Virus record (IMG/VR): IMGVR_UViG_3300009093_000081
Span: 1-39,240 of that record
Strand: one strand, 5' to 3'
Length of the DNA: 39,240 bases
Origin: a virus
Made by a program: the position numbers and the translations under genes
In this document: piece after piece, positions 1,913 through 31,518 of the stretch
Position numbering within the stretch: the stretch's first letter is position 1
How the letters are laid out: the number at the start of each line of letters is the position of its first letter
The notes under the pieces: model-generated
Told to the model about the DNA's origin: nothing
The model's database searches: none
The model's input: the letters and a program-made list of their open reading frames with translations, nothing else

Positions 1913-2869
1913 ATGGCCGTTACATCAGACCCCTTTGTTGGTGGAGTGAGTTCAAACCACCCCGCTAACGACCTCATAGCGACGATATCCGAAGTATGGA
2001 CGGATATGGTCAATGAGAAGACCTTTAACGACACGGTTCTTGCAAACTTCTGCACAGACCTTTCGGCATACGCCCAGAATGGCGGTGCGGTCTTCCATGT
2101 CCCAGACCTCTATACCAACTCCCTCACTGTCTCAACGCAGTCTACGCAGGGAGCGGAAGTCACCACAGCATCTCCAGCCCAGAACAACACCGTTTTGAGC
2201 GTCACTACTCACAAGTATGTGGCCTTCATCATCGGTGACTTGGACATGGGACAGATTGCCTCTAACTACAACATCAACGAGTTGTACGTTAATGAGGCAC
2301 GCCGCCTTCTTACCGAGGCACTTGAGCAAGACCTTGCGGCCCTTTGGTCATCGCTCACCACGAACATCACCATCACAGACACGGCAACGTTGCTCTCTGA
2401 TGCTGAGATTCGTGCAGGCCTTTACACGATGGAGAATGGAAAGTACCACCTCGACGAGTGTGCGTTCTTCTTCCACCCATATGTGTATTGGGAACAGCTC
2501 CACGGAATCACGAAGTACTACCAGCAGTACTCATATGGCCCTTCAACTGAGCCAGGTGCAGTAAGGACTGGTAACTTCGGAACCGCAGGATATGCTCTTA
2601 ACTTCAAGGGCTTCCTCTATGGAGTTCCATGTTACACGACTACCAACATCGTTTCTTCGCTCCTTACATATCGCAACCTGCTCCTCCACAAGAGAGCCTT
2701 TGGTTTCGCTATCCAGACGAAGGGCGGTGCCCGTGTCCGTGTTCAGATTGAGAACGCAGTCCGTAACTTGGGTACGCTTGCTGTTATCGACATCGTATAC
2801 GGCGTTGCCGTTCTCCGCGATGCCGCAGCAGTCTTGCTCCAGGCAACCACCGCTTTCATCAACTCTTAA
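1913..2869 (+). CDS. Major capsid protein
   Basis: A 318-aa protein with the composition and ending of a phage coat subunit: an N-terminal arm, a Thr/Asn-rich middle, a segment naming a beta-hinge (V-A-F-I-I-G-D-L-D-M-G-Q), and the C-terminal V-Y-G-V-A-V-L-R-D-A-A-A-V-L-L motif that I know from HK97-fold coat proteins of podovirus-like phages. It follows the scaffold-like gene and is followed by an intrinsic terminator, consistent with a highly expressed last gene of a head operon. Codon use is visibly more biased to C-ending codons than in its neighbours, as expected for a very abundant protein. The ATG has no Shine-Dalgarno sequence. Confidence 0.85.
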   Translation: MAVTSDPFVGGVSSNHPANDLIATISEVWTDMVNEKTFNDTVLANFCTDLSAYAQNGGAVFHVPDLYTNSLTVSTQSTQGAEVTTASPAQNNTVLSVTTHKYVAFIIGDLDMGQIASNYNINELYVNEARRLLTEALEQDLAALWSSLTTNITITDTATLLSDAEIRAGLYTMENGKYHLDECAFFFHPYVYWEQLHGITKYYQQYSYGPSTEPGAVRTGNFGTAGYALNFKGFLYGVPCYTTTNIVSSLLTYRNLLLHKRAFGFAIQTKGGARVRVQIENAVRNLGTLAVIDIVYGVAVLRDAAAVLLQATTAFINS

Positions 2870-2878
2870 TACGAGTGC

Positions 2879-2910
2879 AAAAGGGGGCTTGTCAAGAACA
2901 GGCCCTTTTT
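2879..2910 (+). terminator. Intrinsic terminator after the capsid gene
   Basis: An A-rich start, a stem (about AAAGGGGGCTTGT against ACAGGCCCTTT, with a bulge and a wobble) and a run of five T lie ten bases behind the coat gene stop. It would end the head transcript, and it overlaps the -35 element of the next promoter. Confidence 0.75.
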
Positions 2911-2918
2911 GCTATACT
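2889..2918 (+). promoter_or_regulatory. Sigma70-type promoter giving a leaderless mRNA for the gene at 2925
   Basis: TTGTCA (2889-2894), an 18-base spacer and TATACT (2913-2918) with a TGC extended -10. Transcription expected seven bases after the -10 would begin at 2925, the A of the next ATG. The promoter is nested in the terminator, so the T-run forms part of the spacer. Confidence 0.6.
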
Positions 2919-2924
2919 ACGGGC

Positions 2925-3359
2925 ATGAGCGAAATATTGTCTCCTGGACAATTCCCGAATACCGAGCCTATCCCAAAGAACCCTAAGCCGAATACTAATT
3001 CGCCTTGGGGTAAGCCTCGTGCCGTTCGAACATATTTCTTTCAGCGTGAAGACGGAAGCATTATCACAGCAGATGACGCCTCGGCGTGGAGCATCTATTC
3101 AGGTAAGAATCAGGTTATAGGGCCTGTGACTGCCCGCCCGAAGTATGTAGGCCAGACTGATGGTGTTCTTTACTTCAAGGCGATTATGGAAGCTCAGAAG
3201 ATGTTTAAGGAAAGGGGACTTGAAGCCTCGCAGGAAATAATGCGCCAGGCTGAGAGAGATTCGTTTGAGGAGGCAAAGAAGAATACCACTCCTCCGAGGA
3301 ACATGGACGCCGTGGACAGGAATGGTAACCCGATTAATCTTAGAACATATGGATATTAG
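2925..3359 (+). CDS. Virion-operon protein, function unknown
   Basis: A 144-aa protein beginning MSEILSPGQFPNTEP. The first 35 residues are Pro/Asn-rich and probably disordered; then comes a compact part (V-R-T-Y-F-F-Q-R-E-D-G-S-I-I-T-A-D-D) and a long acidic-basic helix (about 85-125). The reading frame is open well upstream through the coat gene, but that part is out of frame with the coat protein and this ATG sits exactly at the predicted transcription start. No Shine-Dalgarno sequence. No family was recognised; a head-completion or decoration role is a guess from position. Confidence 0.65.
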   Translation: MSEILSPGQFPNTEPIPKNPKPNTNSPWGKPRAVRTYFFQREDGSIITADDASAWSIYSGKNQVIGPVTARPKYVGQTDGVLYFKAIMEAQKMFKERGLEASQEIMRQAERDSFEEAKKNTTPPRNMDAVDRNGNPINLRTYGY

Positions 3360-4635: not shown

Positions 4636-4811
4636 TTAACTTTGAGCCACAGAAGCAAGTGATAGTTAAACGCCTTAAGGACGGGGCATACCTCACGATT
4701 CCCGAAAGAGACCTTTATGCTACCCTTAAACAAGGATTTGAGTTCGTTGCGAACGACATAGATACTTCTTCCGAGATGAAGAAGCTGTTTGGAGATAAGA
4801 AAAAGAAATGA
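4632..4811 (+). CDS. Small protein in the glycan island, function unknown
   Basis: A 59-aa frame from ATG 4632 (overlapping the previous stop, ATGA) to TGA 4811, which in turn overlaps the next ATG. It starts MINFEPQKQVIVKRLKDGAY and ends in a lysine-rich tail. It has the small beta-then-helix look of phage proteins that sit beside head genes, but no family was recognised. Translational coupling on both sides is the main support. Confidence 0.6.
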   Translation: MINFEPQKQVIVKRLKDGAYLTIPERDLYATLKQGFEFVANDIDTSSEMKKLFGDKKKK

Positions 4812-5701
4812 AAGTCCTCATCACTGGCGGCCTCGGATTCATCTTTAGCCATGTAACTGAATACATGGTCGCAAAAGGGTACGAGGTCGTGGTGATTGAT
4901 AACCTATCCGAAGGTTCTCACCCAGAGATTGAGAATGGGAAATTTAAACTGTATCAAGAAGATGCAACTACTTCTAGGGCATACGATATAATCCTATTCG
5001 AAAATCCTCACTACATTATCCACGCCGCAGCTTATTCCGATGTAGACGGGTCTATAAAGAAGCCAGTTAAGATATTCAATAATAACTTTGATTCTACTCT
5101 TAATGTCTTTGAAGCTGCTAGGAAATGCTCAAACCTGCGTAAGTTGGTTTATGTATCCACTGATGAGGTATATGGGGAATGTGGACACAAGAAGAAAGAG
5201 GATGAGATTATTTTCCCCAAGAATCCCTATGCATGTTCAAAGGCGTTCGGGTCACTACTTCGCCTGACCTATGACAACACCTATCCTGAGTTGAAAGATA
5301 AGACTGCTGAGACTCGTTTCTGTAATGTGTTCGGCCCACGACAAGACGAAAGGAAGATACTACCTCTTGTAAAGAAGTCTATCGAAACGGGGGAGTCTAT
5401 TGGAGTCCACAATGGAGGGAAAGGGTATAGAGAATATATCTATGTAAAGAATATCCCCGAAGTCGTCGAACTTATCATGCTTAAAGGGAACAGGACTTAT
5501 AATGTAACTTTAAACGATGGATATACCGTGGAGGGTTTGATAAAGGAGGTGGAGAAGCTAACTGACAAGACCGTAGAAACGCACGAGACTAACCGTCCTG
5601 GAATGGATTTAAAGTATCAAATGGACAATTCAAGGATACTTGCGCTTGGTTGGAAGCCACGGTATAATTTTATTCAAGGTCTCACTGAATATCTATGTTA
5701 A
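4808..5701 (+). CDS. NAD-dependent sugar dehydratase, RmlB (dTDP-glucose 4,6-dehydratase)-like
   Basis: A 297-aa extended short-chain dehydrogenase. The Rossmann start is G7-G-L-G10-F-I-F13; the catalytic V-S-T-D-E-V-Y-G (residues 116-123) is the signature of dTDP-glucose 4,6-dehydratases, Y141-A-C-S-K145 is the YxxxK pair, and the C-terminus has R-P-G-M-D-L-K-Y with L-G-W-K-P, also typical of RmlB. Such enzymes turn an NDP-glucose into the 4-keto-6-deoxy sugar. It is shorter than usual RmlB (about 340-360 aa). Oddly the third glycine of GxxGxxG is Phe13, which could weaken NAD binding. The substrate nucleotide is uncertain. It is coupled to the aminotransferase that follows. Confidence 0.8.
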   Translation: MKVLITGGLGFIFSHVTEYMVAKGYEVVVIDNLSEGSHPEIENGKFKLYQEDATTSRAYDIILFENPHYIIHAAAYSDVDGSIKKPVKIFNNNFDSTLNVFEAARKCSNLRKLVYVSTDEVYGECGHKKKEDEIIFPKNPYACSKAFGSLLRLTYDNTYPELKDKTAETRFCNVFGPRQDERKILPLVKKSIETGESIGVHNGGKGYREYIYVKNIPEVVELIMLKGNRTYNVTLNDGYTVEGLIKEVEKLTDKTVETHETNRPGMDLKYQMDNSRILALGWKPRYNFIQGLTEYLC

Positions 5702-6723
5702 AGCTTTTCCAACCATATGTCTCGGATGAAGCGAAGAAACTCTGTATGGAGGTTCTTGATTCTAACTATCTTACAGAGGGGGAGCAGGTAAAGCTATTTG
5801 AGAAGGAGTTTGGGGAGAAGTTTGGACTACAGAACGTCGTAGCTCTTAACTCTGGGACTTCCGCACTTGAACTCGCCTATGAGCTGGCAGGAATAAAGGA
5901 AGGTGACGAAGTTCTTACTCCCGTCTTTACCTGTACAGCAACCAATATCCCGCTTCTTCACTTAAAAGCTAAAATCGTATTTGTCGATACGGATTATGAC
6001 CTTAATATCAATATAGAAGATATTAAAAAGAAAATCACAGACAAGACAAAAGCCATTGTATTTGTCCACTTCGGAGGAAACAATAGAGGTCTTAAAGAAA
6101 TACAGGAAATCGCTAGAGGATTTGGAATACCAGTTATTGAAGATGCCGCTCAGGCGGTGGGAAGTGAATACTGGGGAACAAGTGAATTCGCTTGTGTATC
6201 AACTCAGGCTATCAAGACACTTACATCAGGAGATGGTGGATTTCTTATCTGTAAGGATAAACAGAGCGCAGATAAAGCTAGAAGATTGCGCTGGTTCGGT
6301 TTCGATAGGGAAGTCAAACAAAAAGTAGGGAATTGCGATGTAGTAGATGTGGGATACAAGAAGCACATGAATAATATCAATGCTGCTATCGGTCGAGGCA
6401 ATCTCATAGTCATAGATAAGTTGCTAGAACATCGTAAAGACCTTGCGTGGATTTATGAGATATACGGTTTAGTTTGCCATCCATGGCTTGCAGGAGGCAT
6501 GACGAATAAATATGAGGAACTAAAGAAAGCTATGGCCGATGAGGGATATGAGATAGGACAAGCTCATTATCGTAATGATATGTACTCTATCTTTAAGCAT
6601 CTCAAAAATTACTGCCCTACGATGGATATAATCGAGGGTAGATACTTCTTTGTCCCGTATCATCATGGAATCACAGAGGAAGACGCTCATAAGATAGGTA
6701 AACTATGCCAACAGCTAAGATAA
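5695..6723 (+). CDS. DegT/DnrJ/EryC1/StrS-type sugar aminotransferase
   Basis: A 342-aa PLP enzyme: L-N-S-G-T-S-A-L (51-58) binds the cofactor phosphate, E-D-A-A-Q-A-V-G (149-156) carries the Asp that contacts the pyridine nitrogen, and K174 in Q-A-I-K-T-L-T-S-G-D-G-G is the expected Schiff-base lysine. Family members aminate 4-keto (or 3-keto) NDP sugars. With a Gmd-like and an RmlB-like dehydratase in the same operon, products such as GDP-perosamine or a dTDP-4-amino-sugar are possible. The gene overlaps its upstream neighbour by seven bases and the next by 19. Confidence 0.85.
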   Translation: MLKLFQPYVSDEAKKLCMEVLDSNYLTEGEQVKLFEKEFGEKFGLQNVVALNSGTSALELAYELAGIKEGDEVLTPVFTCTATNIPLLHLKAKIVFVDTDYDLNINIEDIKKKITDKTKAIVFVHFGGNNRGLKEIQEIARGFGIPVIEDAAQAVGSEYWGTSEFACVSTQAIKTLTSGDGGFLICKDKQSADKARRLRWFGFDREVKQKVGNCDVVDVGYKKHMNNINAAIGRGNLIVIDKLLEHRKDLAWIYEIYGLVCHPWLAGGMTNKYEELKKAMADEGYEIGQAHYRNDMYSIFKHLKNYCPTMDIIEGRYFFVPYHHGITEEDAHKIGKLCQQLR

Positions 6724-7412
6724 TAGCCACAGCGTTCTCTCAAAGGCGGGCAATAAAACCCGCCTCAAATTGGCCTTATCATAGCCAGATACTATCCACA
6801 GAAAACTTGTATTCCGAACTGGTCACCAAACTAGCCAAATTGGAGATGACTGAAGACCCAGGTGAGCCTATGGATACCTTTATAATCGCATTTAAAGACG
6901 AATGGGGGGCATACAAGCAGTGGCTTCAGTACGACGGTAAATCAACCAAACGAGGCGTGCTCCACATAGTCATTGAGGAAGAAGATGGCGGTTGCTATCT
7001 CCAATATAATAAGGGTTTTCAAATGAACAAGGACAAGTACGAGTGGTTTTTGATAACCTGTGATGATGTGTGTATCTTGGGCCAGAATTACCTAACTAAG
7101 ATAAAATCCAAATGGACAGAAAAGGCTGGATATATCGCCCTACAAGGCTTGAATGACTCTCCTCATGTGCAGGGTTCTATAGGACTTACCCACCGAGACA
7201 TACTCCAAAAGGTATGCGATATGAATAACGGAGAACTTCCTCACCCTAAAGGAGTTTTCTCACAGGAAAGGAACATATCTGAGGGCGAACATCCTTTCAC
7301 TAACATGATTCACCAAATGGGATATGAGTTAATTAAGTATAATAACTCTGAGAAATGGGATAGGAATAACCTTTGTATGCCATACCACGACATTAAAGCC
7401 TCAATACAGTGA
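6705..7412 (+). CDS. Glycosyltransferase-like protein
   Basis: A 235-aa protein with the outline of a GT-A fold: W-F-L-I-T-C-D-D-V-C-I-L around residues 114-125 places D120-D121 where the DxD-type motif lies, followed by a Y-L-T-K-I-K-S-K-W helix and a G-Y-I-A-L-Q-G-L strand; H-R-D-I-L and H-P-F-T-N may belong to the acceptor side. The start at 6705 lies inside the aminotransferase gene, and the reading downstream is clean. Family membership is inferred from pattern and context and is weaker than for the other transferases of the island. Confidence 0.55.
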   Translation: MPTAKIIATAFSQRRAIKPASNWPYHSQILSTENLYSELVTKLAKLEMTEDPGEPMDTFIIAFKDEWGAYKQWLQYDGKSTKRGVLHIVIEEEDGGCYLQYNKGFQMNKDKYEWFLITCDDVCILGQNYLTKIKSKWTEKAGYIALQGLNDSPHVQGSIGLTHRDILQKVCDMNNGELPHPKGVFSQERNISEGEHPFTNMIHQMGYELIKYNNSEKWDRNNLCMPYHDIKASIQ

Positions 7413-8218
7413 AAAAACTTTTGATTACAGGTGCATATGGTCTAGTTGGAACTGAGATATGCGCTCAGTTGGCAAGAAACCACCCAGATATAGATGTAAC
7501 TAAAGTTAAGTGTGAAGAAGGGGGAATGGGTACTTACGATTACATAATCCATGCAGCAGGGTATGGTCAGCCGCAAATGTTTTCAAAAGATAAGGTTATG
7601 ACTATAGAAATTAACACTACCTTAACATCAGTTCTTTTAGACAAACTTAACCCTGATGGTAAGTTTCTTTTCATTTCTTCTTCCGAAGTATATGAAGATA
7701 CTATGCCAGAGCACCCACGGGCATGTTATATCGAAGGAAAGAGGTGTGGTGAGGCCATATGCCACGCCTACGAAGAACAGGGATATGATGTAAAGATTGC
7801 CCGACTTGCTCTCGCGTATGGCCCAGGATACAAGAAAGGCGACACCCGTGTTATTAATCAGTTTATTCAACAAGGGGTGAATGGGGACATCATACTAAGA
7901 GATGACGGTCATGCCAAAAGGACATATATCTATGTCGGAGATGCCGTTACGATGCTATTGAATATCTTATTTAAGGGGACACAAGTTCTATACAATGTAG
8001 GAGGAGATTCAGAGACTACGATTAAAGATTTGGCTATGGCCATTGCGCGCAAGGTTGGTAGAGGTATAGTAGTTGGAAAAGTGAATAAGCCTATAATTGG
8101 CGCACCAGAAAATGTAAAACTAGATATAACCCGCTATGAGAATGAGTTTGGAAAGATGAACTTTGTGTCGTTATCAGAAGGTCTAGATAAAACAATAGAA
8201 TGGGCAAAATCCTTATAA
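7409..8218 (+). CDS. NAD(P)-dependent epimerase/dehydratase or 4-keto-sugar reductase
   Basis: A 269-aa extended short-chain dehydrogenase with an intact T-G8-A-Y-G11-L-V-G14 nucleotide motif, catalytic S-S-S-E-V-Y-E-D (90-97) and Y107-x-x-x-K111. The C-terminal part (Y-N-V-G-G-D-S-E-T-T-I-K-D-L) is typical of sugar-nucleotide epimerases. The best start is GTG at 7409, overlapping the previous stop (GTGA). It could act as a reductase on the keto sugar made by one of the two dehydratases (for example Rmd-like after Gmd), as an epimerase, or as a decarboxylase; sequence alone does not decide. Confidence 0.75.
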   Translation: MKKLLITGAYGLVGTEICAQLARNHPDIDVTKVKCEEGGMGTYDYIIHAAGYGQPQMFSKDKVMTIEINTTLTSVLLDKLNPDGKFLFISSSEVYEDTMPEHPRACYIEGKRCGEAICHAYEEQGYDVKIARLALAYGPGYKKGDTRVINQFIQQGVNGDIILRDDGHAKRTYIYVGDAVTMLLNILFKGTQVLYNVGGDSETTIKDLAMAIARKVGRGIVVGKVNKPIIGAPENVKLDITRYENEFGKMNFVSLSEGLDKTIEWAKSL

Positions 8219-9159
8219 CAGGCCTCACAGGCCAAGATGGTTCTTACATGGCCGAGATTTGTCTCGCTAAAGGGCATGAGGTGCACGGGACTATGCGCCG
8301 TTCATCCTCCCCAAACTCCCAGCGTATCTCGGAGATTATAAAGAGCGTTCATACCCATCTAATGGATTTGTCCGATGCGACCTCGATTACGAGAGTTATA
8401 TCGGAAGTTAAGCCAGACATTATATTTAATCTCGCCGCCCAGTCTGATGTTCGTGCTTCGTATGATATACCCGTGTATACGGAAGATGTGACTGGACTTG
8501 GATTTGGAAGGATAATAGAGGCGGTTAGAATGTTCTGTCCTAAGGCAAAAGTCTATCAGGCTGGCTCATCTGAGATGTTTGGTAAAGTCCAACAGATACC
8601 TCAATCTGAAAATACCCCGTTCTGGCCTCGCTCACCTTATGGGTGCTCTAAGGTCTTTGCCTTTAGCCTGGGTCGGGCTTATAGGGAAGGGTACGGATTA
8701 TCAATCTATAACGGTATATTATTCAACCATGAATCACCACGTAGGGGAGAACTCTTTGTCACGAAGAAAGTCGTCAAAGCCGCAGTCGAAATTAAGAAAG
8801 GTAAAAGGACGAAGCTCACATTGGGGAATCTTGAAAGCAAAAGGGACTGGGGCTACTCGAAAGACTACATGCAAGCGGTATACGATTTCGTCACGACTCA
8901 AGACCCACAGGATTTTGTTATCGCCACAGGGGAAACTCATAGTGTTGAGGAGTTCGTCAAGGAGACCTTCGATTACATCGGTCTCGGTGACTGGAAACAG
9001 TATGTTGAGTTTGACAAGAACCTCACCCGTCCTGCCGAAGTCGATATCCTTTTGGGGGACGCTTCTAAAGTCCGTTCGCTCACTGGCTGGAAGCCTTCGG
9101 TCACTTTTAAAGGGCTAGTCAAGTTAATGGTAGATGATGAAATACAGAACTTTAAGTAA
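8200..9159 (+). CDS. gmd: GDP-mannose 4,6-dehydratase
   Basis: A 319-aa protein clearly of the Gmd family: I-T-G-L-T-G-Q-D-G-S-Y (6-16), the R-R-S-S-S region that contacts the cofactor, G-S-S-E-M-F-G (122-128), Y147-G-C-S-K151, N-H-E-S-P-R-R-G-E-L-F-V-T (176-188) and W-G-Y-S-K-D-Y. It converts GDP-mannose to GDP-4-keto-6-deoxymannose, the branch point to GDP-fucose, GDP-rhamnose, GDP-perosamine or colitose. No recognisable GDP-fucose synthase follows, so a 4-amino sugar made by the aminotransferase or a reduced sugar made by the gene at 7409 are likelier outcomes. Slightly shorter than the usual 340-370 aa. Overlaps both neighbours. Confidence 0.9.
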   Translation: MGKILITGLTGQDGSYMAEICLAKGHEVHGTMRRSSSPNSQRISEIIKSVHTHLMDLSDATSITRVISEVKPDIIFNLAAQSDVRASYDIPVYTEDVTGLGFGRIIEAVRMFCPKAKVYQAGSSEMFGKVQQIPQSENTPFWPRSPYGCSKVFAFSLGRAYREGYGLSIYNGILFNHESPRRGELFVTKKVVKAAVEIKKGKRTKLTLGNLESKRDWGYSKDYMQAVYDFVTTQDPQDFVIATGETHSVEEFVKETFDYIGLGDWKQYVEFDKNLTRPAEVDILLGDASKVRSLTGWKPSVTFKGLVKLMVDDEIQNFK

Positions 9160-9949
9160 AAAGGAAAATGATACTGCGCTCATACGAATAGTCGATGAGC
9201 TTCTTAAGCCACTACCCACTGCAGGAAAGAAGCGTAAAGAAGACTGGGAGAAAGGTTGGGGGCAGAATCTAAAAGAGGGTGACATAATACCTCGGTACTT
9301 TGGAAAGTATAAGATAAACCGACTTAATGGAAAATTAGTCTATGCACTATCGAAGAATTACGAAAGGGAAGCATTGTATTCAATCCTAGACCCTTTATTC
9401 AAGAAGTATTCTAAAGGTTGTAGATACATACATGAGTTCGGGTGTGGTACGGGGCATAATCTTAAAAGAGCCGCAGAGATGACTAATTGCTGGCCGATTG
9501 GTTCTGATTGGGCTGAATCATCTCAGAAGATAGTGAGGAAGATGGGATTCAGTGCGACCAATTTTGACTTCTTTAATCCGAACATGGGAGTTGAGTTCTA
9601 TCCCGACACCTGTGTATATACCGTTGCCGCACTTGAACAGGTCGGGACTAAGTATAAGAAGTTCGTACAGTATCTCTTGAATGAAAAATACTATGATGGG
9701 CCTAAAAATAGGAATAAACCTATAGTAATTTTCCATGTCGAGCCTATAGAGGAGCTTCTTGACCCGACAAATCTACTAGATTACCTCTCTTTAAAGTATA
9801 TGAAGAAGAGAAAGTATCTATCTGGCTACCTGACTTATTTGCGAAAGCTTGAAAAACAGGGTAAGATACAGATACTTGAAGCACGACGCTCTGGCATTGG
9901 TTCGATGTTCATAGATGGGTACTCAATAATCGCATGGAAACCACTCTAA
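9134..9949 (+). CDS. SAM-dependent methyltransferase
   Basis: A 271-aa protein with Rossmann motif I as I-H-E-F-G-C-G-T-G-H-N-L (about 99-110), an acidic residue after the second strand (I-G-S-D-W-A-E), and a Y-T-V-A-A-L-E-Q strand-4 motif. The N-terminal ~95 residues are an extra helical, basic domain. The final strand (S-I-I-A-W-K-P) is usual for sugar or small-molecule methyltransferases. In this operon it probably methylates a sugar. It overlaps gmd by 26 bases and the next gene by 16. Confidence 0.75.
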   Translation: MMKYRTLSKKENDTALIRIVDELLKPLPTAGKKRKEDWEKGWGQNLKEGDIIPRYFGKYKINRLNGKLVYALSKNYEREALYSILDPLFKKYSKGCRYIHEFGCGTGHNLKRAAEMTNCWPIGSDWAESSQKIVRKMGFSATNFDFFNPNMGVEFYPDTCVYTVAALEQVGTKYKKFVQYLLNEKYYDGPKNRNKPIVIFHVEPIEELLDPTNLLDYLSLKYMKKRKYLSGYLTYLRKLEKQGKIQILEARRSGIGSMFIDGYSIIAWKPL

Positions 9950-10530
9950 AAAAGCTTAGAAATAGGATACTTGAAGTCGCCCTCCGTGATGGAATGGGAC
10001 ATATTCCGTCTGCCCTTTCAATACTCGGCATAGTCTGGGAACTATACGACAAAATAATGACTAAGGATGACCAGTTTATTCTTTCTAAAGGACATGGCTG
10101 TATGGCTTTATACGCCGTCCTAGAGGAGAAAGGTCTATTAGACTGGTCTACTAAGCTTTGGGGACATCCGAAGCGTGGCGGGGCTATTTTGGCCTCTACA
10201 GGTTCATTGGGACACGGGTTGCCAATGGCAGTAGGGCTAGCTTTGGCCAAAAAGATAAAAGGTGAGGTCGGAAAGGTCTATTGTCTCATAGGAGACGGTG
10301 AGTGCAATGAGGGTACGACATGGGAGAGTTATAATTTAATGAAGTATCTTAGATTAGATAACCTTAAAGTCATTGTTGATGACAATGGCACTTCCTTGTT
10401 TGACCAAATTAAGTTTCCAGAGTTTGAATATCGTAAGACGATAAAGGGAGATGGCGTCCCGTATCTACAAGGTCGAGAGTGGCACAATAAGAAAATAACA
10501 AAAGAAGACTATGAGAAATGCCTTTCCTAA
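9934..10530 (+). CDS. Transketolase-like enzyme, N-terminal (diphosphate-binding) subunit
   Basis: A 198-aa protein with S-K-G-H-G (51-55), a G-S-L-G-H-G-L loop (90-96) and the thiamine diphosphate motif G120-D-G-E-C-N-E-G followed about 25 residues later by V-D-D-N151-G. These are the hallmarks of the PP domain of transketolase. The subunit is shorter than usual split forms (about 270 aa). It overlaps the gene for the partner domain by 20 bases. In nucleotide-sugar clusters such two-part enzymes can transfer a two-carbon unit to make branched sugars; here that role is inferred from the company it keeps. Confidence 0.85.
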   Translation: METTLKKLRNRILEVALRDGMGHIPSALSILGIVWELYDKIMTKDDQFILSKGHGCMALYAVLEEKGLLDWSTKLWGHPKRGGAILASTGSLGHGLPMAVGLALAKKIKGEVGKVYCLIGDGECNEGTTWESYNLMKYLRLDNLKVIVDDNGTSLFDQIKFPEFEYRKTIKGDGVPYLQGREWHNKKITKEDYEKCLS

Positions 10531-10972
10531 AATAGTCATGGATATAATGGACAAGGACGAACGAGTAGTCGTCCTACTCGGTGATATTGGTGTCCATGCC
10601 TTTAGAGATGTGTTCGCCAAGTACCCTACTCGTTGCTATAACACGGGGATTTGTGAGCAATCTATGGTCGGTGTTGCCGCAGGCTTAGCTATGGCGGGAT
10701 TTATTCCGATTGTCCACACCATTTCTCCTTTCCTAGTAGCCCGTGCCTATGAGCAGATACGAGATGACTTTGGATTCCAAGAATTAAATGGGACTTTTGT
10801 CGGGGTAGATGTATCGGGTAATAATTATGGCCCGACCCATGAGTGTCCTGAAGACTTAAGTCTAATGTCTTACGTTAAAGGAATGACTGTATATGCTCCT
10901 GAAAATGCTGAACAGTTCACCGAACTTCTTGAATCTCAGTATGGAAAACTTAATTACTTTAGAATCAAATGA
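10511..10972 (+). CDS. Transketolase-like enzyme, pyrimidine-binding subunit, short form
   Basis: A 153-aa protein matching the central domain of transketolase: G-D-I-G-V-H (24-29), N-T-G-I-C-E49-Q-S-M-V-G-V-A-A-G-L-A with the glutamate that activates thiamine diphosphate, and Y-G-P-T-H-E-C-P-E-D-L-S-L-M. It ends right after this domain, so the usual third (C-terminal) transketolase domain is missing and no other gene nearby supplies it. The pair with the previous gene therefore looks minimal but has the catalytic residues. Overlaps the next start by four bases. Confidence 0.85.
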   Translation: MRNAFPKIVMDIMDKDERVVVLLGDIGVHAFRDVFAKYPTRCYNTGICEQSMVGVAAGLAMAGFIPIVHTISPFLVARAYEQIRDDFGFQELNGTFVGVDVSGNNYGPTHECPEDLSLMSYVKGMTVYAPENAEQFTELLESQYGKLNYFRIK

Positions 10973-11640
10973 ATGAACTCGAAAAGATAAAGGAATTGGC
11001 AGAGATTCCAATGACAGACGATAAGACTACTAAAAGAGTGGAGATTATCATGCTAAAGTTTAAGGAGAATTGGGAAGTCATCGGTGAAGCCATACGCCGA
11101 ATCATCGCAAATACAAATTATCCCTATAAACTTACTATATTCGATAATAGATTAAATACGGCCAACACATCTAGGGCATGGAATAAGTTAGTTAGTGAAT
11201 CCACTTGCGATTATGTCCTTATTATTGATTCTGACGCCTATATTCCAGAGGGGATTGGGCCGTGCTGGTTGGGAAGAATGATGGAAAGCATAGATGAGAC
11301 TGGACTAGTTATTCCTGTATCAAATCTAAGTGGAGGCCAAAGCCAAAAGGTTGGTGGTCCTAAGATATACCCTAGTACGACAAGAAACCGAGGTATATGG
11401 AGCGGATACTGCTTTCTCTTTAAAAAGAGCCTGTATGAGCAATTAGGGCCATTTGATGAGAGATTCTACCTTTACGGGCAGGATTCAGAGTGGGCGCATA
11501 GGTCAAAGAAGACTGGTGGGGCAGTCATGCGGGAAGATGTGTGGGTAAAGCATATCGGAGGTTACTCAATGGAGAAGAATGAGAACAAAGATTTTGATAA
11601 GATGTACGCACGTAAACTATTTCAATACCTATGCGCTTAA
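10969..11640 (+). CDS. Glycosyltransferase family 2
   Basis: A 223-aa GT-A enzyme: V-E-I-I-M-L strand, F-D-N-R-L-N-T-A-N-T-S-R-A-W-N near residues 58-72, Y-V-L-I-I-D-S-D-A-Y (82-91) with D87-x-D89 as the metal site, G-Y-C-F-L-F-K-K-S-L-Y and G-P-F-D-E-R-F-Y-L-Y-G-Q-D-S-E-W, where the last Asp-Ser-Glu contains the expected catalytic acid position. It closely follows the classic GT2 layout. Coupled to the transketolase gene by ATGA. Donor unknown. Confidence 0.85.
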   Translation: MNELEKIKELAEIPMTDDKTTKRVEIIMLKFKENWEVIGEAIRRIIANTNYPYKLTIFDNRLNTANTSRAWNKLVSESTCDYVLIIDSDAYIPEGIGPCWLGRMMESIDETGLVIPVSNLSGGQSQKVGGPKIYPSTTRNRGIWSGYCFLFKKSLYEQLGPFDERFYLYGQDSEWAHRSKKTGGAVMREDVWVKHIGGYSMEKNENKDFDKMYARKLFQYLCA

Positions 11641-23748: not shown

Positions 23749-24518
23749 AATTCACACTCCAATACCCGATAAAGCCAATCATCGTAACCCAACATTTCGG
23801 GGAGACGGCTAACCTTGCTTACTACGAGGCGGCGGGGATTAATTTCATCGGGCATAATGGAATAGATTTCCATGCTTATCATGGGCAACCTATTTATGCA
23901 GCTCACGATGGTACGGCCTATTACGAGATAGACCAGAGCGGGGGACATGGGGTGATAATCGTCACTAACGATGAGTACGACTACAAAGGTGGTCAGGCCT
24001 ACTTCAAATCAATTTACTGGCACATGATTGATTCATCGAAAGAACCCCAATTTAAATCACCGATAGAAGGTTACAGCTTTCCTGGAAATGGAATACAGGT
24101 TAAGACTGGCGACTTGATAGGCTACGCAAACTCAACAGGCCTATCCACAGGTGACCATCTTCACTTCGGTCTTAAGCCGATGTTACTTGCCTATCCATCA
24201 GACTATACGAACATAGAACAGAATAATGGCTATATGGGAGCAATAGACCCTACTCCATACTTCCCAAGACACATTTTCAATACTGACATGAACTACGGGG
24301 AAAATTCCCCTGAAGTCTCTGCCTTACAGGACTATTTGATACAAAATGGCTTTATGACGCCCATACCCTCAGCTCAGTATGGCATATATGGGCCTAAAAC
24401 GGCCTCAGGCGTGTTTCTTTTCCAAAAGACGTATCAGGTATCGAACCAGCTCGTTTTGGCATGGAATAGGGGTAAATACGTCGGCCCACTTACGAGGAAA
24501 TTCCTGAACTCTGTTTAA
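23745..24518 (+). CDS. Endolysin: M23 metallopeptidase with C-terminal peptidoglycan-binding domain
   Basis: A 257-aa protein. Residues 1-145 are a LytM/M23 peptidase: G-H37-N-G-I-D41-F-H (HxxxD zinc ligands), Y-W-H93-M and G-D-H138-L-H140-F-G (HxH). It would cut peptide crosslinks of peptidoglycan. Residues about 190-257 are a peptidoglycan_binding_1-type repeat (S-P-E-V-S-A-L-Q-D-Y-L, G-I-Y-G-P-K-T-A-S-G-V, then V-G-P-L-T-R-K-F-L-N), a form I associate with Patescibacteria. There is no signal peptide, so release to the wall needs the holin-like neighbours. Last gene of the overlapping lysis cassette. Confidence 0.88.
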   Translation: MKFTLQYPIKPIIVTQHFGETANLAYYEAAGINFIGHNGIDFHAYHGQPIYAAHDGTAYYEIDQSGGHGVIIVTNDEYDYKGGQAYFKSIYWHMIDSSKEPQFKSPIEGYSFPGNGIQVKTGDLIGYANSTGLSTGDHLHFGLKPMLLAYPSDYTNIEQNNGYMGAIDPTPYFPRHIFNTDMNYGENSPEVSALQDYLIQNGFMTPIPSAQYGIYGPKTASGVFLFQKTYQVSNQLVLAWNRGKYVGPLTRKFLNSV

Positions 24519-24534
24519 TTGTAAATCTCAAACT

Positions 24535-24579
24535 GAACCGAAACTGCCGCAAAATATAGCACGCAGATTACATCGGTTC
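24535..24579 (+). other. Hairpin between endolysin and the next promoter
   Basis: GAACCGA (24535-24541) and TCGGTTC (24573-24579) are exact complements across a 31-base loop. There is no T-run, so it is not a normal terminator. It overlaps the promoter region of the following gene and could be an operator or a 3' mRNA structure. Confidence 0.35.
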
Positions 24580-24596
24580 GGTTTAAGGTGTATAAT
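24568..24596 (+). promoter_or_regulatory. Promoter of the TATAATACAG group
   Basis: TATAAT at 24591-24596 followed by ACAG, with a weak -35 (TTACAT, 24568-24573, 17-base spacer). It drives the two zinc-ribbon genes that end the rightward virion region. Confidence 0.6.
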
Positions 24597-24614
24597 ACAG
24601 GTGAAAGGCTCTTT

Positions 24615-24791
24615 ATGACCTATAAATGTCTTAACTGCGGTTTTGACTTTGGTTGCAAATCTTTGCCTGTCGAGAGCGAGAAAGGAAACTTCTGTTCCGA
24701 GGAGTGCTTCGTGGAGTTTACTTACAAAGAACCCGCCCAGCTGTTCTTGTTTTCATTCCCCGAACCTATCTATCCGATTGGAGGTGCTTAA
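24615..24791 (+). CDS. Zinc-ribbon small protein
   Basis: A 58-aa protein with Y-K-C-L-N-C-G-F near the N-terminus and N-F-C-S-E-E-C further on, a CxxC...CxxxC pair fit to bind one zinc. The start at ATG 24615 is favoured by a rare clear Shine-Dalgarno sequence (GAAAGG, 24603-24608); the frame is open upstream only through the promoter. The hydrophobic proline-rich tail has no known motif. Role unknown, perhaps regulation. Confidence 0.65.
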   Translation: MTYKCLNCGFDFGCKSLPVESEKGNFCSEECFVEFTYKEPAQLFLFSFPEPIYPIGGA

Positions 24792-24792
24792 C

Positions 24793-24972
24793 TTGAGACA
24801 GGCATACGCTTATTGCAGCCAGTGCCAACAGACATTCCCCCGCTCATGGTTTCAAACCCATGACGCGACAAGGAAAAACGGCCACGACTTTTGTTCAACA
24901 AAGTGTTGTGGAAAGTATCAACCAAATAAAACACACGAGCTGTTTCACATAGCGGCTCTGACAAGGAGGTGA
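24793..24972 (+). CDS. Zinc-ribbon small protein with TTG start
   Basis: A 59-aa protein beginning (M)RQAYAYCSQCQQTFPRSWF and containing D-F-C-S-T-K-C-C-G-K, again a CxxC...CxxxC zinc site. TTG 24793 is chosen as start because a strong GGAGGT (24780-24785) lies seven bases before it and it follows the previous stop directly. This pair of genes differs from the rest of the genome in having good ribosome-binding sites. Function unknown. Confidence 0.6.
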   Translation: MRQAYAYCSQCQQTFPRSWFQTHDATRKNGHDFCSTKCCGKYQPNKTHELFHIAALTRR

Positions 24973-24982
24973 TTCATCTACT

Positions 24983-25005
24983 GAGAGGCTTATCACCTCT
25001 CTTTT
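24983..25005 (+). terminator. Intrinsic terminator ending the rightward virion region
   Basis: GAGAGG / CCTCTC with a seven-base loop and TTTT. An alternative pairing of AGGTGAT (24966-24972) with ATCACCT (24992-24998) uses part of the same stem. It separates the rightward genes from the leftward operon that ends at 25026. Confidence 0.7.
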
Positions 25006-25025
25006 AGTAATTGGTAATGAGGGGG

Positions 25026-25178
25026 CTACTTTGCTTCGTTCAGGTCTTCGATAATCGAATCAAACCATGCTTCTGGGCCGCTTTCAGAATAGTTCTCTCC
25101 TTCTCTCCAAAAACGGAGTTTATATACTTCTGCAGCTATATCAGCAATTATTTGTTTTAAGTCTCTGGTTTTCTTCAT
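25026..25178 (-). CDS. Small protein, function unknown (weakly DUF2934-like)
   Basis: A 50-aa frame reading MKKTRDLKQIIADIAAEVYK and ending E-A-W-F-D-S-I-I-E-D-L-N-E-A-K. The order 'I-A-x-x-A-x-x-x-Y ... W-R-E-G ... P-E-A-W-F' slightly resembles the short DUF2934 family, but the match is poor and should be taken as a hint. It is the last gene of the leftward operon; no clear leftward terminator was seen behind it. Confidence 0.5.
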   Translation of the reverse strand: MKKTRDLKQIIADIAAEVYKLRFWREGENYSESGPEAWFDSIIEDLNEAK

Positions 25179-25186
25179 ATAGTGTC

Positions 25187-25273
25187 TTAATTAAGGAACA
25201 TACCAATAATCACAGCCGTTATGATAGAGCCAAATGCGAAGAAAATGAGTGGTGTAAGTGCTGATTGTCTCAT
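25187..25273 (-). CDS. Tiny membrane protein
   Basis: A 28-aa frame, MRQSALTPLIFFAFGSIITA followed by V-I-I-G-M-F-L-N, almost all membrane helix. It lies between two small genes of the leftward operon with short gaps on both sides. Too short for certainty; the hydrophobic pattern and position support expression. Confidence 0.45.
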   Translation of the reverse strand: MRQSALTPLIFFAFGSIITAVIIGMFLN

Positions 25274-25305
25274 ATCTATATACCTATTAAGCTGATAAAA
25301 GGGTC

Positions 25306-25488
25306 TTAAATATCCATACAGTTCTGATAATCACACTCATCGCATACAGTGTGGTAGGCGTTTGGGTCGTTCCCCACATCGTTGGCATACCCATTAGGGC
25401 GGTATGAGACGCTCAATTTTTTCTTGCCACATACCTCACATTTCATGCCCTCAGGGTGTTCTTTTTCTAATACAGACTCTCTGGTCAT
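25306..25488 (-). CDS. Small zinc-finger protein
   Basis: A 60-aa protein with K-C-E-V-C-G-K-K-K (CxxC) and H-T-V-C-D-E-C-D-Y-Q-N-C (CxxC plus one further Cys), a two-knuckle zinc ribbon. The AT-rich leader lacks a Shine-Dalgarno sequence. It lies downstream of the homing endonuclease pair. Function unknown. Confidence 0.6.
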   Translation of the reverse strand: MTRESVLEKEHPEGMKCEVCGKKKLSVSYRPNGYANDVGNDPNAYHTVCDECDYQNCMDI

Positions 25489-25500
25489 AATGATATGTAT

Positions 25501-30304: not shown

Positions 30305-30409
30305 TTAATCAGAGTTAGCTATTAACTTTTCCTCTTCTTCCTCTCTCTCCCTTTCTAGTTCAGGCCTTACTACGTTCTCTTGGTATGCTTCTTCGTTTGA
30401 ATCATTCAT
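30305..30409 (-). CDS. Tiny acidic protein, first gene of the leftward operon
   Basis: A 34-aa frame, MNDSNEEAYQENVVRPELER followed by a run of Glu and Arg. It is the first reading frame after the long gene-free region, with its ATG preceded by AAAGAGAT, a poor ribosome-binding site. If transcription begins near 31238, its leader would be about 830 nt. Assignment as a gene rests on position and the M-N-D start shared with the gene at 30134. Confidence 0.45.
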   Translation of the reverse strand: MNDSNEEAYQENVVRPELEREREEEEEKLIANSD

Positions 30410-30423
30410 ATCTCTTTGGCTCG

Positions 30424-31210
30424 GTTCCACCCATTTCTAAAACCTATCTCAGTTTATCTGCGTTAGCAGTTAGAGAGAGAAAATGGGCAGAACGGAACAG
30501 GTTTTAGTTTGATAATTTACATACCTGATAATCAAAGCGAAGTGGGCCAGTTCTCTGACCTAGAACTTGTCCTGCTTACGCAGCATACAAGTGCTGGCCT
30601 GCATGTTAGAAAACCTGTTCTCGTCCCGTTGGCACAGGTCAGCCCGTATGCCCTGTTTCCGAGACGCACTTCATTTTGATTACCAAGCACTTGATAGAGA
30701 AAGTTCTGTAAACATGATTATTCGTTAGCTTACTATAGTGCCATAATTAGCATGTTATAAGCATACTAGCACGACTAAGCAATACGGAATTTCCGAATAA
30801 TCTTCTCGCCGTATCAACCCGATAGCTTACAGAGTTTTCTCTACCAAGACTTTGTATCTGATGAGCAGACCAGCGGAGGCATGCCGATGAGTCCCCCATC
30901 GGTCGCCGTAGCGATGGACTCATACCCTCCCGTCTCGAATCGAACGAACGGGATACCCGCGGAGGTCTACTCACCAGACTATTTAATTGTTATCACGCTC
31001 TGGGATAGAAAGACGACATTCCCTTGACTGTCTAACTAACGAGTATCATGTGTTGGGTACTGTGGGAAAGGGTGCTGGGTTGCAACATAGGTTAGAGGTT
31101 GCACTTGCCGCTTTTTATTCAGCGTATATATCCGCCGCTTTCCTCTCGGACTAACCAGCCACAGTTTTCAACACACGAAACTAATCAGCCGATGTCTTAG
31201 TATCTTCGTC
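30424..31210 (-). ncRNA. Candidate large structured RNA or very long structured leader
   Basis: No credible gene lies between 30410 and 31317, but there are many complementary segments. Helices seen: 30424-30436 with 30481-30493; 30495-30505 with 30610-30620 (11 exact); 30529-30544 with 30667-30682 (15 of 16); 30545-30550 with 30594-30599; 30565-30575 with 30580-30592; 30555-30561 with 30636-30642 (pseudoknot); 30690-30711 with 30827-30848 (21 of 22); 30716-30724 with 30794-30802 (9 exact); 30862-30876 with 30957-30973; 30929-30937 with 30945-30952; 31049-31065 with 31159-31175 (7+7). The leftward strand is preferred because two CTGC/GCAG stems would then carry GUAA (GNRA) and UAAC (UMAC) loops and a seven-base T-loop-like UUCGAUU appears; G-U counts do not decide. 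A leftward promoter lies at its 5' side. Class unknown. Confidence 0.6.
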
Positions 31211-31237
31211 CTCCTGTCCAAGAGCATGATTACTGTC

Positions 31238-31246
31238 TGGTATAAA
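31238..31246 (+). promoter_or_regulatory. Rightward early promoter (extended -10)
   Basis: TGG followed by TATAAA (31241-31246), like the other G-G-T-A-T-A-A phage promoters; no clear -35. It would transcribe across the GTAC palindromes into the ribbon-helix-helix gene. Its -10 overlaps the -10 of the leftward promoter by two bases. Confidence 0.45.
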
Positions 31247-31272
31247 TATAGCACATCTAAAAAGGTACACAA
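31245..31272 (-). promoter_or_regulatory. Leftward early promoter
   Basis: On the minus strand: TTGTGT (31272-31267), a 16-base spacer, and TATATT (31250-31245) with a TGC extended -10. It would start near 31238 and transcribe the structured region and the leftward operon. The -35 lies inside the palindrome GGTACacaaGTACC. Confidence 0.5.
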
Positions 31273-31312
31273 GTACCCCCATGTGGATAACCGACTTATG
31301 TACAACTAGTAC
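31264..31312. promoter_or_regulatory. Paired GTAC palindromes, possible operators
   Basis: GGTACacaaGTACC (31264-31277) and GTACaactaGTAC (31300-31312), each followed by CCCC and AT, are spaced about 36 bases centre to centre. They sit between the divergent promoters and the ribbon-helix-helix gene, a typical place for operators of such a protein. Confidence 0.45.
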
Positions 31313-31353
31313 CCCATATGTTAGGCTTAACCTATATCAGTAATAATAAAAAT

Positions 31354-31518
31354 ATGTCCAAGAAAGAAAACGCCACAGTAAGGATTAAGATTTTTCCAAA
31401 AGATTTGAAACAGATAAAGATTAGGGCAGCTAAGGCCGAAATGACCATTGGGGAGTTTGTGAGCTATTTACTTTCTATTAGCAAGATGTTTAATGCCTCA
31501 CAGTATGAAAAAGACTGA
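31354..31518 (+). CDS. Ribbon-helix-helix (CopG/Arc-like) DNA-binding protein
   Basis: A 54-aa protein from ATG 31354: T-V-R-I-K-I-F (beta ribbon), then K-D-L-K-Q-I-K-I-R-A-A-K-A (helix) and T-I-G-E-F-V-S-Y-L-L-S-I (helix), the standard RHH layout in which the ribbon residues touch DNA as a dimer. An in-frame ATG at 31318 would add 12 residues ahead of the fold and is less likely. It probably represses one or both divergent early promoters through the GTAC palindromes. Confidence 0.75.
   Translation: MSKKENATVRIKIFPKDLKQIKIRAAKAEMTIGEFVSYLLSISKMFNASQYEKD

Follow-up and report, generated by a model that had tools for sequence, protein, structure and literature searches.

We looked at the gene content of the window, that is, the whole stretch of 39,240 nucleotides analysed here. 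It is a complete phage genome (39.2 kb), its first and last 123 bp being identical, and among its products are a terminase, NinG, a DnaD-like replication protein, lysis enzymes and HNH endonucleases. The most similar terminases that the searches gave (38-70% identity) were carried by two viral contigs and by MAGs labelled Nomurabacteria, Saccharibacteria or 'bacterium', and from this the host probably belongs to the ultra-small Patescibacteria. Shine-Dalgarno sequences are rare, any of four loose core tetramers being present at 7 of the 32 starts inspected, and A/U-rich contexts were seen upstream of the start codons of most genes. The late region holds what looks by eye like a nucleotide-sugar/glycan cassette (4808-10972; epimerase, aminotransferase, dehydratase and transketolase-like halves), which is partly conserved in the one near-complete relative, hereafter G001.

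The genome is packed with genes except for one sizeable stretch, 30410-31317. This region of about 0.9 kb is flanked by the first ORF of a leftward operon and by a divergent gene for a ribbon-helix-helix protein (31318-31518), which starts at 31318 or, more likely, from 31354 onward. ORFs of at least 50 aa within the region were limited to five overlapping frames of chance size (75 aa at most), and reading TGA as glycine opened no convincing frame there, in agreement with the original prediction that it contains no plausible gene. By our reading, the one further gap of some size, 24518-25500, is occupied by small zinc-ribbon-like ORFs; part of it, 24519-25200, was considered as a second non-genic structured stretch and rejected, its folding z-score being just -2.9 and the sequence looking coding.

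At the right-hand end of the region lie a perfect DnaA box, a promoter-like site and a pair of direct repeats (Table 1). The GTACCCC repeats are probably the operator of the divergent ribbon-helix-helix protein. Leftward transcription had been predicted from a promoter at about 31245-31272. A promoter-like site is indeed present at about 31248-31290 and the folding described below is strand-asymmetric, but the site was picked by eye, and a consensus promoter scan did not list it, as it fell below threshold. No intrinsic terminator was found on the minus strand from 31290 to 25501, and no good promoter was found between the RNA and the leftward operon.

Predicted fold of the putative leftward transcript

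Helices were counted with Watson-Crick pairs only, an approach that is strand-neutral and uses no energy model. Nine strong helices were found within 320 nt, against a mean of 0.65 and a maximum of 4 in 60 dinucleotide shuffles. Three helices of the original prediction were found just as described, with 15 of 16 pairs (30529-30544 with 30667-30682), 11 exact pairs (30495-30505 with 30610-30620) and 9 exact pairs (30716-30724 with 30794-30802). The helix joining 30690-30711 to 30827-30848 reaches 21 of 22 pairs, as claimed, only when G.T is counted on the plus strand, and has 20 of 22 on the transcribed minus strand. The bipartite helix near 31049-31065 and 31159-31175 is present too, with 7+10 pairs in the predicted fold where 7+7 had been announced.

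Folded by minimum-free-energy models from this one sequence, the minus-strand RNA running from 31241 to 30404 (838 nt) gave -315.9 kcal/mol against -236.3 +/- 7.8 kcal/mol for its dinucleotide shuffles (z -10.2), and none of the 150 shuffles approached its energy. The plus strand of the same region reached z -5.2 (80 shuffles), and this difference between the strands points to an RNA made leftward. When 838-nt slices of the genome were compared on both strands, the region ranked first of 90 (-9.8, the next independent stretch being at -4.4), and with 240-nt slices the two best of 652 came from it. Each of the five domains of the fold beat 200 of 200 shuffles when taken alone, and the pairing probability was near 1 for most helices. 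The comparison with shuffled sequences that the original prediction had proposed thus came out clearly on the side of structure, and the models make it very probable that this unusually large, well-defined structured RNA is real.

Table 1. Features of the gene-free region and its borders.
Feature	Position	Strand	Remarks
Whole predicted structured RNA	30404..31241	-	z -10.2; rank 1/90; start inferred from promoter
Perfect DnaA-box consensus TTATCCACA, upstream of leftward promoter	31282..31290	-	two copies in genome against 0.34 expected
Promoter-like site TTGTGT, 16 nt, extended -10 TGC-TATATT	31247..31274 (approximate)	-	by inspection
Direct repeats ACAAGTACCCC / ACTAGTACCCC, probable operator of ribbon-helix-helix gene	31269..31315	+	sole GTACCCC sites in genome
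Domain I: imperfect rod of ~250 nt with branched tip, closing 5' end of RNA	30985..31235	-	z -7.8
Domain II: closed by a helix of 16 bp; its junction carries the T-loop-like hairpin GUUCGAUUC	30856..30979	-	z -4.4
Domain III: rod, 13+9 bp closure; apical loop CUUAUAA with palindrome UUAUAA	30690..30848	-	z -5.1
Domain IV: multi-branched, closed by 15+7 bp, with a tetraloop of GNRA type (GUAA)	30522..30689	-	z -6.6
GAACAGGUUUU in domain IV junction, candidate pseudoknot partner of 30495-30505	30610..30620	-	11/11 complementary; energetically neutral
Linker CUAAAACCUGUUC	30495..30507	-	alternative partners: 30610-30620 (11 bp) and 30437-30445 (9 bp)
Domain V: stem-loop, ends 9 nt ahead of first ORF of leftward operon	30419..30498	-	z -4.8
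First ORF of leftward operon, 34 aa, MNDSNEEAYQ...	30305..30409	-	1 nt to next ATG (30303)

Crossing helices had also been expected. The 11-bp one (30495-30620 against 30529-30682) is plausible: the fold containing it was computed at about -107 kcal/mol with no pseudoknot penalty applied, and at -102.6 kcal/mol without the pairing. About 9 kcal/mol is needed to free both 11-nt strands, and about 13 is gained from the duplex. In the model, such a contact within or between molecules is possible and energetically not compelled. Pairing of the linker with 30437-30445 would, by our reading of the geometry, need domain V to be opened, and appears sterically and energetically poorer. The other crossing (30545-30599 against 30555-30642) was absent from the predicted fold, which has a local hairpin at 30545-30560 in its place. 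The 3' end of the structured RNA may continue into the operon. The loop of domain V (30441-30453) is complementary at 12 of 13 positions to 31329-31341, in the leader of the rightward mRNA for the ribbon-helix-helix protein; an antisense pairing was considered and set aside, as a rough estimate gave a 2% probability of such a match by chance before multiple testing, and chance may explain it.

Known RNA families and homologue searches

When the whole window was compared by cmscan with Rfam 15 (OLE, HEARO, raiA, introns, riboswitches, 6S and others), as the original prediction had suggested, no match above a curated cut-off was obtained; at E<=5 the region gave two chance-level matches, far below the cut-offs. 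Membership of GOLLD or ROOL, which had been proposed, was not borne out by cmscan or by single-family searches. For GOLLD (RF02032), the latter at E<=10 gave no match in the region, chance matches in control genomes showing that the search was live. ROOL (RF03087) was found neither by cmscan nor by its single-family search, and the positive control of that search was silent, so the weight lies on cmscan. A tRNA search of the genome found none. The RNA is thus an orphan predicted structured RNA, outside every Rfam 15 family.

GOLLD RNAs are phage-borne, often longer than 800 nt and frequently close to tRNAs; their 3' half is conserved, and they have a loop-linker pseudoknot and symmetric intermolecular kissing loops (PMC12286853). 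The RNA described here resembles them in its phage origin (a genome with a terminase), its predicted length of 838 nt, its many helices and its possible loop-linker pairing. It differs from them in having no model match, no tRNA nearby and a position that appears to be that of an operon leader without terminator. A homo-14-mer cage also is characteristic of GOLLD. Since size and style are alike and the model and tRNA setting are not, it may work like GOLLD-type RNAs, and we do not file it as one. ROOL is likewise a large multi-helix RNA occurring in phages and prophages, but it measures about 575 nt, has another domain layout, and its covariance model does not match our RNA. Very few phage RNAs of such size and complexity are known (GOLLD, ROOL), their roles being unclear, and RNA-only cages were a surprise of 2025. 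The RNA described here, comparable to these in size, is an orphan from a phage with probable Patescibacteria hosts.

Homologues were also looked for at the level of sequence, in collections that may lack records very close to the window. Searches by blastn against GenBank phages and plasmids (PLSDB) at E<=10 yielded nothing beyond isolated chance matches, some 29-48 nt long, and DNA and covariance-model searches of samples of 380 genomes of the Patescibacteria phylum gave no homologue. Searches for close relatives through the terminase and NinG likewise yielded no homologue of the RNA; an SSB-like protein used as query gave no relatives. Some short matches were rejected as chance. Three exact patches of 16-17 nt searched over IMG/VR gave 17 matches without likeness beyond the patch, all in open frames of at least 126 codons, a 25-nt match (96%) in a Patescibacteria genome lies inside a murD-like gene, and a 26-nt match in a related contig (L007) is coding.

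Possible roles of the RNA

The reading that we favour, and to which the models lead us to give about an even chance, is that the large RNA is a structured 5' leader of about 830 nt belonging to the leftward operon, which runs from 30409 to 25501. Transcription would start leftward at the DnaA-box promoter, and the RNA and the operon would form one transcript, which is the simplest reading because no minus-strand terminator was found from the promoter to 25501. Of the two options offered by the original prediction, a separate RNA or a leader, the second is favoured because this terminator is absent and just 9 nt separate the last helix from the first ORF. Of the five consecutive domains, the first would enclose the 5' end and the last would close just ahead of the first start codon. 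The job we think most likely is that of a cis-acting leader shielding the 5' end of the transcript; it would control how translation is initiated, and its timing, in a phage mostly devoid of Shine-Dalgarno sequences, and it could possibly also be cut out as a stable RNA. Against this reading stand the cost and unusual length of an 830-nt leader, the single sequence and the by-eye promoter. About 2% of a 39-kb phage genome (some 840 nt) spent on a non-coding RNA is costly, and the genomes of the probable hosts are tiny. To our knowledge, such a leader would be among the longest structured leaders in any phage.

The folding agrees just as well with an independent, processed RNA, and the main rival to the leader, which we hold to be possible but clearly less probable, is a free ornate RNA, processed or separately terminated, acting in trans like GOLLD or ROOL. 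Its palindromic apical loops, together with the contact between loop and linker, might allow it to build a homo-oligomer. Its size and multi-domain complexity lie within the range of these families, and the fold has palindromes in its loops (UUAUAA, AUAUAU, UCGA), one loop of GNRA type and the possible 11-bp contact between loop and linker, but short loop palindromes are common by chance, there is no Rfam match and no nearby tRNA, and the 3' end has no terminator, the operon beginning 9 nt later. A combined version is slightly more tentative still: the RNA may represent a new class of large ornate RNA confined to Patescibacteria phages, released from the operon leader and forming assemblies with further copies or with proteins of the host or phage. 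If true, it would be the first large ornate RNA linked to a DnaA-box promoter of an early operon.

It is unlikely, in our view, that the RNA modifies RNA polymerase or attenuates the operon in cis, either by HK022 put-like antitermination or as a riboswitch-like element with 30495-30507 as switch strand. The leader position in an early operon would suit it, as would the two exact complements of that strand (30610-30620 and 30437-30445), the second of these pairings being the poorer one, and a terminator-like hairpin was seen by eye inside a 359-nt leader of G001. The put RNAs of HK022-type phages also are structured and open an early operon transcript. The known ones are, however, an order of magnitude smaller, and neither the leader nor the operon has a terminator-like site on the minus strand, which leaves nothing obvious to read through. 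A DNA element, that is, a replication or packaging origin with hairpins acting in single-stranded DNA, is very improbable. The perfect DnaA box and the divergent position by the DnaD-like and ribbon-helix-helix genes are what one could expect of it, and the helices also appear in the Watson-Crick-only count (G.U 8 against A.C 6), but the DnaA box is single, no iterons were found, and one strand folds far better than the other, as expected of an RNA with G.U pairs. That the region is decayed coding sequence with chance helices is hardly credible: no gene is left in it, but composition cannot explain the helix excess or the z-scores.

Leaders in related phages

The leader reading also draws on G001 (39.1 kb; terminase 59% identical), the nearest relative with synteny, whose late genes are in the same order and whose early region is unrelated. 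On its contig L006, TTATCCACA boxes co-oriented with transcription were found at 8972, 10044, 10898 and 15518 (+), and a further one at 5065 (-) faces the terminase genes. Behind the second box, 10070-10428 gave z -7.8 on the plus strand and -1.8 on the minus strand; behind the third, 10930-11126 gave z -7.0 on the plus strand and -5.3 on the other. The third promoter has GTACCCC (10908) next to its box, the same pair as at our promoter, and GTACCCC occurs only twice in each of the two genomes. That strongly structured leaders of G001 immediately follow TTATCCACA promoters which face its early genes argues for the leader reading. Those of G001 are much shorter, with other genes downstream, and because no sequence or covariance-model similarity to our RNA was detected they may be analogous and not homologous. 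These sequences suggest a common regulatory layout with leaders differing in size and sequence, perhaps a group-wide way of building early transcripts, and the co-oriented boxes suggest that host DnaA, or a mimic, acts at the promoters of this phage group.

The divergent regions of three other relatives (L012, L014 and L016) showed no unusual structure, so that the structured region is not universal in the group. In a distant contig, L008, gene-poor structured stretches were seen upstream of the terminase on the plus strand, at 1743-2290 (548 nt, z -6.5) and 2700-3310 (z -4.9). In L007, whose terminase is 70% identical, a group I intron (71 bits) lies at 5175-5451 between phage structural ORFs.
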